DNA from: Sphaerochaetaceae bacterium
GTDB taxonomy: Bacteria > Spirochaetota > Spirochaetia > Sphaerochaetales > Sphaerochaetaceae
Assembly: GCA_028532765.1 (NCBI GenBank)
Contig: JAQQAR010000093.1
Coordinates: 1-64,000 of the forward strand
Length of the DNA stretch: 64,000 bases
Direction of reading: 5' to 3'
The translations under genes were made by a program, and so were the position numbers. This document shows, piece after piece, positions 57,959 to 61,918 of this stretch. The notes under the pieces are model-generated. The model did not search any database and was not told the DNA's origin. It saw only the letters and a list, made by a program, of their open reading frames with translations. Each line of letters opens with the position of its first letter. Positions within the stretch are counted from its first letter, which is position 1.

Positions 57959-58735
57959 TTACTGGAGCAGAGCCTCAATATTGGCCTGCACCATCGACTC
58001 CAGACTCCCTCTTCCCCCGCTTTCTGGGAAATTTCTCCAGACAACGAGCTTGGTATCTGGGGATACTTCCATCAAGGGTCCTGCGATGGGGTTGTGGATA
58101 TTGTCGATGATAATCTGATATCCACCCTTCGCTACCTCGCTGATCTGTTGGGCAGTAACCGGCCCAGGCCCGAAGGTACCTGCAACCTGGAGTCCCAGAT
58201 CTTCTGCAAGATAGACTTGCATCGCATGACAGTAGACCTTTGCCTCTGTCAGTCCTCTCTCTTCAGCCTGTTTTGCACCCTCCTCGATGGTAGCGATATA
58301 GCTAGCAAGACGTTCCTTGCTCTTTTCTTCCGTTCCCGTGATATTTGCAATAGCCTCTGCCTGCTTCTGCACATTCTGGATATCATTGGTGGTGGTTATC
58401 TGAAGCATGGTTCCTTCTTCTTTCTTGATGGAATCTCCCATGCTCTGCATCATCCTCTCATAGCCTGCATAAATGAAATAGTCTGCATGGTTGATCTTCA
58501 CCACATCACTGACGGTAATCTCATACTCAGGTGGATGGGTGAGGTTTGCAGGGGCGATAAAGGCAACATCATCGAGCCCTCCAAGGTCTGCAAAAGCCGC
58601 AGTCCAGCTTGTGCTTGCAACGATGGAAGCGGGGTGGGAAGCACTGGATGCAGCTACTTCTTCCGGGACACCTTGGGCAGAGATACTCAGTACTGCCAAA
58701 AGCATGATGGTCAGGGAGAAAAGGTATTTTCTCAT
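57959..58735 (-). CDS. Metal ABC importer binding protein (ZnuA/TroA-like)
   Basis: A 258-residue exported protein: signal peptide 1-20 (cleavage after SIS/A), mature AQGVPEEVAAS, no lipobox. NLTHPPEYEITVSDVVKINHADYFIYAG is the TroA-type first metal loop (quoted in parts THPPEYEITVSD, ADYFIYAG) with the His ligand; AMQVYLAEDLGLQVAGTF is the second lobe region. It is shorter than usual ZnuA proteins and lacks a His-rich loop. Last gene of a three-gene importer; zinc or manganese is the likely cargo. Start overlaps the permease stop. Confidence 0.85.
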   Translation of the reverse strand: MRKYLFSLTIMLLAVLSISAQGVPEEVAASSASHPASIVASTSWTAAFADLGGLDDVAFIAPANLTHPPEYEITVSDVVKINHADYFIYAGYERMMQSMGDSIKKEEGTMLQITTTNDIQNVQKQAEAIANITGTEEKSKERLASYIATIEEGAKQAEERGLTEAKVYCHAMQVYLAEDLGLQVAGTFGPGPVTAQQISEVAKGGYQIIIDNIHNPIAGPLMEVSPDTKLVVWRNFPESGGRGSLESMVQANIEALLQ

Positions 58736-59547
58736 GAATGTAATCCTCTCTTATGTGTTGTAGGTATGATAAAAAGCAAAGCCGAGAGCAATGCAATTGT
58801 TCCACTCGGTGGTAAGTCTGTGGCAATGGCAGCCAGAAACCCAAAGGTAGAGACGAATAGTCCTGTAAGGCAGGAGTAGAGTAGCAGTTGTTTGAGACTC
58901 TCAGCACGCTTTCCTGCAACGAGGACGGGAAGGATGAGTAGTGCATCAATGAGCAATGCACCAAGTAGTTTCATGGCAAATGCGATCACCAAGGCAATGA
59001 CCAGTACCATGGCAGTGTAGTGTGCCTTTACCGGCATTCCCAGGGATTGGGCAATTTCCTGATCGAAGAAGATCGCGCTTACCGTCCTGAAGTTTGTAAG
59101 CAGGTAGATGGCCAAAATGAGGGCGATGCCGATCAGTATCACGATATCTGCCCAAGCGAGTGCAAACGGACTTCCCCAGAGCAGTTGCAGTGTATCCTTT
59201 GCAGGAACGTCCCACAGATGCATAACCAGAGAAGCAGCTGCCATGGTAAAGACCATCCCAGCAGCACTGGCAAGACCGAATCCATGGCGGGTATCCTTCG
59301 CTAAATGCATCATAGCCAAAACCAAGAGAATATTCAGGGCAATGCTGAGCGGAAGTATCGGAAGAGAGAGCGCAAGGGAGATGGCTCCCCCAAGGATAAC
59401 ACCGTGCATGAGCATATACCGCATGGGTACCAGGTCAAGGCGGAGAACCATGACACCACTGGCTGGAAAACAGAGCCCGGCAATAGCCATTGCAAGCAAT
59501 CCTTTCATTACCGGAGGTAGGGTGAGAGCGTAGAGAAAATCACTCAT
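58732..59547 (-). CDS. Metal ABC importer permease (ABC-3 family)
   Basis: A 271-residue membrane protein with about eight hydrophobic helices, matching ZnuB/TroC-type permeases (LDLVPMRYMLMHGVILGGAI and KLLGALLIDALLILPVLVAG quoted from the membrane core). It overlaps the ATPase gene by 8 bp and the binding-protein gene by 4 bp, so all three are coupled. Confidence 0.88.
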   Translation of the reverse strand: MSDFLYALTLPPVMKGLLAMAIAGLCFPASGVMVLRLDLVPMRYMLMHGVILGGAISLALSLPILPLSIALNILLVLAMMHLAKDTRHGFGLASAAGMVFTMAAASLVMHLWDVPAKDTLQLLWGSPFALAWADIVILIGIALILAIYLLTNFRTVSAIFFDQEIAQSLGMPVKAHYTAMVLVIALVIAFAMKLLGALLIDALLILPVLVAGKRAESLKQLLLYSCLTGLFVSTFGFLAAIATDLPPSGTIALLSALLFIIPTTHKRGLHS

Positions 59548-60571
59548 AGGTACCCCCTAAGTGGAGAGTCGGCCATCTTAAATCCTTTTCCAGTGCCTTG
59601 TCATGGGTGACAATGATAATGGTCGGCATCTCACCCACTGTAAGGCTTTGCAGTACTTCAACAAGCGTGGATCGACTTTTTGCATCCAGGAAGGAGGTGG
59701 GTTCATCAAGGAGGAGCAATCTTGCTTTCTGGCAGAGCGTCCTAGAGAGAGAGACTTTTTGCCTCTCTCCTCCGCTGAGTGTGAAGAAATTCCTCTCAGC
59801 AAGATGTTCTATCTTTGTTCTCCTTAGGGCAGTGTCGATCTCCCACTGTCTCTCTTCCCTTGTGAGGGTAGGATCGCATGCCATAGCTACCACTTCACGG
59901 GCTGAGACTGGGAACTGCTGCTCTTGTTGTTGTTGCCTGATATACCCGATCGTTCTTTTTTCCAGGTGGGTTACCTCGTCTTCCCCGATAAGAATCGTTC
60001 CCTTGGTGGGTTTGAGTTTTCCCATCAAGAGGGATAGCAGTGTAGTTTTTCCCATTCCGTTGTCTCCTAGGATGAGGAGTCTCTCCCCTTCCTCAAGATG
60101 GAAGGAGAGGTCTTTCAGGATAGGCGGACGCTCTGGGTAGGAGAAAGAGAGGTTTTCTATACGTACAGAGACCCCTCGTACCAGTTTTGCACGCTTTCTC
60201 AGAAGTCTGTACATCTGTTCCTGATCATGCATCTCCCCGAGCAACTCCTCGGTCTTGCATTGCAGTCGTTTTATGCGTTTTTCATAGGAGACGGTAATTC
60301 CATACTTTTGGTAATATTCAATGGCAAGGTCACTGATTAGATTGATATGGGCACGCTGTATGCCAAAGCGGACCATAAGCAAGGCAGCGGCTTTTCCAGC
60401 TGCCGTGTCATGTGCACTGAGACAATCCCTTGCTCCTGTATAGGTCTCAAGAAATCGTTCAAACGCAAAGAGTGGGGTGAGCCAGTGCCCGTTTTCTGAG
60501 AAAATGAGTTGATCATGATTATACACTTCCAGGGTATGGTTGTCTGAAAGTGGCTGTGTATATCGTTCCAA
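59540..60571 (-). CDS. Metal ABC importer ATPase with N-terminal DUF1893 domain
   Basis: A 343-residue fusion. Residues about 10-100 match DUF1893: LEVYNHDQLIFSENGHWLTPL and DTAAGKAAALLMVRFGIQRAH (shortened where long) and an Ile-Ser-x-x-Ala region. Residues 135-343 are an ABC domain: GDNGMGKTT (Walker A), LSGGERQK (signature), LLLLDEPTSFLD (Walker B) and THDKAL (H-loop). TTG start with AGGAG seven bases upstream, directly behind a T-run of an intrinsic terminator in the leader. DUF1893 is normally a free-standing small protein, so the fusion is notable; it may sense the metal or nucleotide state. Confidence 0.82.
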   Translation of the reverse strand: MERYTQPLSDNHTLEVYNHDQLIFSENGHWLTPLFAFERFLETYTGARDCLSAHDTAAGKAAALLMVRFGIQRAHINLISDLAIEYYQKYGITVSYEKRIKRLQCKTEELLGEMHDQEQMYRLLRKRAKLVRGVSVRIENLSFSYPERPPILKDLSFHLEEGERLLILGDNGMGKTTLLSLLMGKLKPTKGTILIGEDEVTHLEKRTIGYIRQQQQEQQFPVSAREVVAMACDPTLTREERQWEIDTALRRTKIEHLAERNFFTLSGGERQKVSLSRTLCQKARLLLLDEPTSFLDAKSRSTLVEVLQSLTVGEMPTIIIVTHDKALEKDLRWPTLHLGGTYE

Positions 60572-60577
60572 GGTATG

Positions 60578-60641
60578 CTCCTAAAAAAAAGAGGGCCATG
60601 CAAGCAAAAAAGTAGTACTCTTCTTTGCCTTCATGGCTCTC
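60578..60641 (-). promoter_or_regulatory. Leader terminator and leader ORF of the metal importer
   Basis: On the minus strand GAGAGCCATG (60641-60632) pairs with CATGGCCCTC (60600-60591) and the enclosed AGGCAAA with TTTGCTT, giving a long hairpin followed by eight Ts (60590-60583) and then AGGAG (60582-60578). No promoter can fit between the T-run and the ribosome binding site, so the operon must be read through this terminator. A 17-codon frame (60634 to 60581) starts in the left arm and its TAG stop abuts AGGAG; its translation would open the hairpin. Confidence 0.6.
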
Positions 60642-60701
60642 TTGTGTACATAGGTAATGAATCAGGAATATGCCCCTTCATGAGGCATGTTGAGACGTAT
60701 T

Positions 60702-61139
60702 TTACCTACTAGGCATGGTACTGTCAAGGAAACGCCTGACTTCCTCCAACGTGAAGTCAATCATCATGGACAGGGGGGCTTCCTGGATTCCTACAATTGT
60801 CACATTGCATTTACTGATGGGGACAAGGATCTTGTGAGCCTTGCTCTGGGCAATTGCCACCGCCATTGCTGGAGTGATCTCTCCATGGAGTGCATCTGAG
60901 GTAAGGATTCCTAGGGGGCCTACAATGAGGTCAGCATTTCTGCATGCCACAATGACAGGATTCTCACCGGTTGCAATTGCATCAGCACCGCTTTTTAGCA
61001 TGGCACTGGCTGCCAGGCTGTTGGTCCCAATTCCCAGTACTTCCACCTCTCTGAATGTTTTCTTGATAGCCGCAACAAGCGCTTTTCCCAAGCTTCCACC
61101 CTGACCGTCAATGACAACGAGCTGTACGTTCTGTTTCAT
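60702..61139 (-). CDS. DUF3842 protein
   Basis: A 145-residue cytoplasmic protein of DUF3842. VVIDGQGGSLGKALVAAIKK at the N-terminus looks like a nucleotide-binding beta-turn-helix, and VPISKCNVTIVGIQEAPLSMMID is the conserved C-terminal part with one Cys. Function unknown. It is 130 bases upstream of the metal importer on the same strand and transcription for the importer must pass through this interval, so the two may be linked; divergent from the GntR 4 gene. Confidence 0.82.
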   Translation of the reverse strand: MKQNVQLVVIDGQGGSLGKALVAAIKKTFREVEVLGIGTNSLAASAMLKSGADAIATGENPVIVACRNADLIVGPLGILTSDALHGEITPAMAVAIAQSKAHKILVPISKCNVTIVGIQEAPLSMMIDFTLEEVRRFLDSTMPSR

Positions 61140-61168: not shown

Positions 61169-61918
61169 ATGCCAGAGGTGGATTGTCTTGCAGATTTATC
61201 CGCTTCACGATACGATAGCCCCATGCAGTCCCTGAAAAAAGAACGTGTATCGATCATGGTTACCGATGCAATAAAAGAGATTATCAAAGAGGAGCACCTC
61301 AAACCTGGGGATAAGCTCTACAGTGAAAAAGAGCTTGTAAAAAAGCTTGAGGTAAGTCGGTCTTCAATTCGTGAAGCACTGAGGATGCTTGAAGTATCCG
61401 GAGTGGTGAAGGTATATCAGGGAAAAGGGGTGTTTGTCAGTGATCCTTCCGAGCAATCCCACCCAGTGAAGAACTGGGTAGTGGAGAATGCAGAAGCACT
61501 GAGGGAACACTTTGAGGTAAGGCTTTTAATTGAACCTCATGCAGCATCCCTTGCATGTCGATTTGCTGAACAAAAAGATTTGGAAGCACTCCAATCTTGT
61601 TATGATACGTTTGTTGAAAAGGTAAAAACCGGGGATGTTATTGAATCCATAAGCAGTGACAGTGCCTTCCATCTTGCTGTTGCAAAGGCAACCAAGAATC
61701 GGACATTGGCTGTCTTGATGAGGACGATGGATCAGACGCTTAATGAAGGTTGGTATGCCAGTCTTCATGCACCTGGGCGTCTGGAATCATCCATTGTAGA
61801 ACACGGGCGTTTGCTTCAGGCAATCCTCAATCATGATCAAGAAGAAGCATCCCAGGCAATGGAAGACCACCTGAGAAATGCCTTAAAGGACATCCAGCAC
61901 TATTTCGGAACTCTCTAA
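61169..61918 (+). CDS. GntR-family (FadR/FCD) regulator 4
   Basis: A 249-residue regulator. The HTH holds YSEKELVKKLEVSRSSIREALR and the wing VYQGKGVFVSDP; the FCD domain has E/H/R-rich ligand motifs (RLLIEPHAASLACR, SDSAFHLAVAKATKN, EHGRLLQAILNHD). TAGGAG seven bases before the first ATG supports the long form with an 18-residue N-terminal extension; a downstream ATG is possible. A perfect palindrome in front of the next gene is the likely operator, so it probably controls the MBL-hydrolase/GntP unit; divergent from DUF3842. Confidence 0.88.
   Translation: MPEVDCLADLSASRYDSPMQSLKKERVSIMVTDAIKEIIKEEHLKPGDKLYSEKELVKKLEVSRSSIREALRMLEVSGVVKVYQGKGVFVSDPSEQSHPVKNWVVENAEALREHFEVRLLIEPHAASLACRFAEQKDLEALQSCYDTFVEKVKTGDVIESISSDSAFHLAVAKATKNRTLAVLMRTMDQTLNEGWYASLHAPGRLESSIVEHGRLLQAILNHDQEEASQAMEDHLRNALKDIQHYFGTL

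Follow-up and report, generated by a model that had tools for sequence, protein, structure and literature searches.

The leader RNA between a DUF3842 gene and a metal-importer operon in this Sphaerochaetaceae genome contains what sequence comparison indicates is a two-hairpin RNA switch conserved in three phyla: Bacillota, Spirochaetota and Chloroflexota. The dual hairpin is conserved and covarying, its second hairpin and the terminator of the leader are mutually exclusive, and computation established its position relative to a promoter and its linkage both to DUF3842 and to nickel/cobalt genes. The best reading of these observations is an ANTAR-like antitermination switch that has non-ANTAR loops and works without ANTAR in many genomes. 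We consider it reasonably probable that a trans-acting regulator acts on the two loops, with DUF3842 the likeliest regulator and nickel/cobalt status the likeliest signal.

Within the window (the whole 64,000-nt stretch that was analyzed), the element lies on the minus strand between the DUF3842 gene (60702..61139, minus strand, 145 aa; Pfam PF12953, E 3e-49) and a DUF1893::ABC ATPase gene (59540..60571, minus strand, TTG start at 60571; Pfam PF08973 and PF00005). Downstream of the ATPase gene, also on the minus strand, are an ABC-3 family metal permease (58732..59547; PF00950) and a divergent ZnuA-family binding protein (57959..58735; PF01297, E 2e-8), for which a close solved relative was not found. 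The DUF1893 (TM1506) domain occupies the N-terminus of the window ATPase, and a DUF1893-like stretch is separate from the ATPase in other genera of the family (e.g. G042:C13 and G057:C93). A GntR/FCD regulator gene (61169-61918) is divergent from DUF3842.

The ATPase gene is preceded by a minus-strand intrinsic terminator (60583..60643) whose 22-pair stem (60643-60589; -28.1 kcal/mol, z -5.8) was equaled in stability by 0 of 200 shuffles, and whose T8 (60590-60583) runs into the AGGAG Shine-Dalgarno sequence of the gene (60582-60578). A simple terminator scan of the window did not list this terminator, probably owing to mismatches in the stem. The sequence-only reading had proposed that the hairpin, the T8 and the abutting Shine-Dalgarno sequence attenuate a metal-importer operon. 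These features are real, and attenuation is supported by retention of the terminator hairpin across the whole genus, as found by comparison with close relatives, and by the window promoter scan, which found no promoter-like site that would give a start between the T-run and the ATPase gene. The terminator is probably regulatory.

A strong sigma70-like promoter (TTGACA-17-TAAAAT, 11/12; 60699..60727, minus strand) lies at the end of DUF3842, with its -10 box ending 10 nt before the first hairpin, P1. Thus, the terminator hairpin sits in a leader of ~120 nt and not merely at the end of an operon gene. Across all element sites, a promoter scoring at least 9/12 was present within 60 nt upstream at 42 of 49 (shuffles, 9.6%), and the -10 box ended 4–15 nt before the element in 39 of those 42. 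This short, fixed spacing indicates that RNA synthesis probably begins at P1 or immediately upstream of it. An ordinary intrinsic terminator of DUF3842, allowing some read-through without regulation, would also end a gene and carry a U-run, but it does not account for the conserved promoter between DUF3842 and the terminator, which places the terminator in a leader, it gives P1 and the identity of the loops no role, and the element also precedes genes that have no DUF3842 upstream. We regard that alternative as extremely unlikely.

The P1 hairpin, ATGCCTC-ATGAA-GGGGCAT (60670..60688, minus strand, -9.6 kcal/mol), is the second small stem that the sequence-only reading had seen at about 60670-60690; it is one half of a dual-hairpin element and not incidental. 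The other half, P2 (GCC-ATGAA-GGC; 60627..60637, minus strand, -4.0 kcal/mol), had gone unnoticed. Both hairpins have a C-A[N]GAA-G loop, and in the window a linker of 32 nt separates them. P2 lies inside the left arm of the terminator, so P2 and the terminator are mutually exclusive. The calculation that gave these P1 and P2 energies put the window terminator at -27.6 kcal/mol. At 31 of 49 sites, P2 is lost to a hairpin that resembles a terminator, reaches -18 kcal/mol or lower and ends at a T run (shuffles, 1.4%). Together with the position of the promoter, this overlap marks the choice between P2 and terminator as the probable decision point. A clear U-run terminator is absent from a few sites of the family (G049, G037 and L120), where the output may instead be translational.

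The intergenic plan of promoter, P1, P2 in the terminator left arm, terminator and Shine-Dalgarno sequence is kept in 20 congeners, and P2 is present in all 21 genus members that have an intact ATPase gene. In the congeners the P1 loop is ATGAA (GTGAA in one) and P2 is GCC-ATGAA-GGC. In two species of a sister genus, G041 and G056, the P1/P2 loops are AAGAA/AAGAA and AGGAA/AGGAA, so the P1 loop still matches the P2 loop. The covariation score for 25 distinct P1s was 0.90 compared to 0.23 for shuffled sequences; P2 stems also covary, and slid controls collapse. Over all sites, the loops are either A[N]GAA pentaloops or NGAA tetraloops, with linkers from 3 to more than 100 nt. Sites outside the genus were found partly by hairpin formation, which biases the percentage paired upward there; the conservation within the genus and the loop test described below are free of this bias. 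A mobile repeat was ruled out, as the genome itself carries only one copy.

The sequence-only reading had further proposed that ribosomes on a 17-codon leader frame (MKAKKSTTFLLAWPSFF and a stop; 60581..60634, minus strand) operate the switch. That frame is indeed present in the window and ends at TAGGAG, but it is kept in only 1 of 21 genus members, the window itself, and is broken or runs on in the other 20. A one-base change in the T-run shifts it in relatives whose ATPase is 97% identical, its ATG is gone in G041 and G056 while the hairpins are retained, and its Shine-Dalgarno sequence is weak. Conservation being absent, we judge the frame incidental; no conserved translated leader ORF lies over the terminator, and we give ribosome-mediated attenuation through this peptide virtually no weight. 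In five congeners (L015, L016, L017, L019 and L020), the frame from the P2 ATG reads stop-free into the ATPase frame, so read-through RNA there could yield an N-terminally extended ATPase.

The layout resembles the targets of ANTAR-domain antiterminators (EutV, NasR, AmiR), in which two small hairpins with matching conserved loops are arranged so that P2 is embedded in the terminator stem, and a single ANTAR protein occurs in most members of the genus. However, ANTAR targets require hexaloops in which position 1 is A and position 4 is G (PMC3369931), whereas the loops here have five nucleotides (A[N]GAA) or four (NGAA). ANTAR systems also need a short linker (5–12 nt in eut): induction fell when the linker was extended to 14 nt (PMC3369931), and antitermination was lost when 20 nt were added (PMC8934654). 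The linkers of the present element range from a few nucleotides to about 100 nt or more. Additionally, an ANTAR protein is absent from 14 of 30 element genomes, several of which are 94–96% complete, while G034 and G027 have an ANTAR protein and no element. With the wrong loops, long linkers, linkage to DUF3842 and so many element genomes lacking ANTAR, the reading of the element as an ANTAR target is largely refuted and we consider it very unlikely.

CsrA/RsmA is a dimeric protein that recognizes hairpin loops, and CsrA needs GGA in the loop. The proposed recognition of hairpin loops by a protein is similar here, but the element loops AUGAA, AAGAA and ACGAA, most of them AUGAA, are without GGA.

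To analyze the linkage between the element and DUF3842, we examined loci around DUF3842 from 80 further records and from Spirochaetota. The loop test took C-G-closed hairpins of at least 5 pairs with a 5-nt loop in the 250 nt downstream of DUF3842 and assumed no loop sequence. Outside the genus, A[N]GAA accounted for 19 of 46 such pentaloops downstream of DUF3842 and 2 of 219 in DNA further away (Fisher p 1.5e-14), the loop motif having already been seen in a subset of the loci before the test was written. Upstream of DUF3842, 0 of 22 C-G-closed pentaloop hairpins carried A[N]GAA. Among 4-nt loops, AGAA made up 8 of 45 downstream of DUF3842 and 2 of 215 in the control (Fisher p 1.6e-5).

Covariance models gave a similar picture. 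In 100 relatives, model R1 (E<1e-3) found a single site in each of 25 genomes, all at a DUF3842-transporter junction; the next match (L196, E 0.004) appears to lie within coding sequence. Relatives that have the ATPase without DUF3842 are also without the element. Model R3, applied to 196 Clostridia-class genomes at a cut-off of E<=0.02, gave 20 element genomes, of which 18 encode DUF3842, compared to 74 of 196 overall (hypergeometric p 5e-7; 7e-6 when the three genomes contributing to the model are left out; kinship is ignored in both). The site is within 3.3 kb of DUF3842 in 9 of the 18 genomes and otherwise far away or on another contig, which implies action in trans. The matches L196, L207, L227-L230, L210-L213 and L247, which lie away from transporters, were read by hand as chance matches, mostly in coding sequence. 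Of the two element genomes without DUF3842, one (L247) looks like chance while the other (L241 in G503, upstream of cbiM) appears genuine. In Clostridia, most DUF3842 genes are without a detected element, the sensitivity of the model being limited, and we would see the same if DUF3842 had another role.

DUF3842 is the only protein we found linked to the element, and on this genomic association it is the leading candidate for a protein that would bind the P1-P2 RNA and cause read-through. The window protein matches the PF12953 profile at 167 bits (cut-off 28.5), and its AF2 model (pLDDT 94) is a Rossmann-like domain. A Foldseek search with the model gave no significant PDB match (best E 1.4e-3); VIA-align scored dehydrogenase and methylglyoxal-synthase folds at Z up to 9.9, which we read as Rossmann-like only. 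The fold comparison showed no likeness to known RNA-binding proteins, and the literature searched yielded no mention of DUF3842 or PF12953. The DUF3842 profile weakly matches the RNA-binding ribosomal protein uL1 (E 0.04), probably just through a shared Rossmann-like pattern. A Rossmann-like fold suits a sensor of a nucleotide or cofactor and is not itself proof of RNA binding. It would also fit a co-regulated metal- or cofactor-handling protein, with some other trans-acting RNA-binding factor reading the loops. DUF3842 indeed stands in a target-like position downstream of hairpins in one lar-cbi operon (L255), and G503 carries the element without DUF3842. Nevertheless, the co-occurrence holds in Clostridia, although many elements there lie in trans to DUF3842 (G384, G467 and G490), and a second linked protein did not emerge. 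We regard such another factor as possible but doubtful, and DUF3842 itself as the better candidate.

The genes behind the element point to metal. In Spirochaetota, the targets are ABC-3/ZnuA-type or unfused ABC ATPases; further targets are ECF S components (PF12822), CbiM, FecCD, LarB, LarE, FmdE-like proteins (LarE and FmdE being identified by eye from sequence) and a small membrane protein. In G480, A[N]GAA/AGAA hairpins precede larE, larC, cbiM, cbiQ, cbiO and DUF3842 in a row, and in G456, DUF3842 is followed by membrane proteins and larE-larB-larC (gene names by eye in both). LarB, LarC and LarE synthesize the nickel-pincer nucleotide, and Ni or Co is the cargo of CbiM-type transporters, which makes nickel/cobalt the best guess for the signal. 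If so, the ‘zinc’ importer of the window may carry another metal. LarC presence is associated only weakly with DUF3842 (p 0.056), indicating that nickel-pincer synthesis is not the sole context.

Several further genes adjoin the element. In Lutispora (L161, 3401-4507), a uridine-kinase-like gene that converges on DUF3842 comes after an element-controlled ECF S gene; a similar kinase-like stretch adjoins DUF3842 in L092 and L103, and the substrate is perhaps a nucleoside-type cofactor precursor. In Massiliimalia (L209, downstream of 1568), the small membrane protein (MACFIVPAAEAIVTT...) comes directly behind the element, and it recurs between DUF3842 and larEBC in G456 (L254, 4613-5071); it has no Pfam or NCBIfam match. 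The element also stands before an FmdE-like gene (HGHECPGLAIG...) in L252 and L243, hinting that this family is part of the same metal regulon.

Metal- or cofactor-themed targets, conserved loops and control by a terminator would also suit a riboswitch in which the two loops of the RNA bind nickel/cobalt or a cofactor with no need for a protein, as would the result that no known RNA-binding protein was found. However, just ~four loop bases and the closing pairs are conserved and the linker is highly variable, which suits two separate recognition sites over a folded pocket, and a riboswitch leaves the linkage to DUF3842 unexplained. The NiCo (czcD) riboswitch, which concerns Ni/Co-related genes, is structurally a four-way junction, whereas the element consists of two independent hairpins. 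The cobalamin riboswitch (RF00174) controls cbiM-, ECF- and FecCD-type genes in many bacteria. Neither of these nor any other Rfam family (4227 families, gathering score) matched at any tested element site, while one RF00174 match elsewhere on L092 indicates that the search can detect the cobalamin riboswitch. The earlier statement that no known riboswitch core is present is thus supported, and a protein-free riboswitch appears unlikely.

Returning to antitermination by a trans-acting regulator, we propose that the leader RNA would start a few bases before P1, so that P1 would fold first and P2 second. Unless a factor is bound, the much stronger terminator (-28 versus -4 kcal/mol) would capture the left arm of P2, and transcription would by default end immediately upstream of the ribosome binding site. 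A trans-acting RNA-binding regulator would recognize both C-A[N]GAA-G loops, hold P2 and block the terminator, giving read-through; the metal-importer operon would then be on, probably when metal or cofactor is short. DUF3842 would most likely be the regulator or sensor, and nickel/cobalt status, whether the metal or the nickel-pincer cofactor, the likeliest signal. From the patterns above we infer the protein binding, the identity of DUF3842, the ON state upon binding and the signal sensed.

A more specific proposal, plausible but tentative, is that DUF3842 represents a new family of RNA-binding transcription antiterminators. Its members may sense nickel/cobalt status, or may detect the nickel-pincer nucleotide in the Rossmann-like pocket, and would act on the dual C-A[N]GAA-G hairpins to regulate both the uptake of metal and the making of nickel cofactors in Bacillota, Spirochaetota and Chloroflexota. 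If true, dual-hairpin antitermination would exist in a second form, independent of ANTAR and common among gut Clostridia and spirochaetes. The DUF3842 family would also gain a testable function, and the regulon would indicate which metal is handled by numerous ECF S components and ABC-3 importers that are as yet unassigned.
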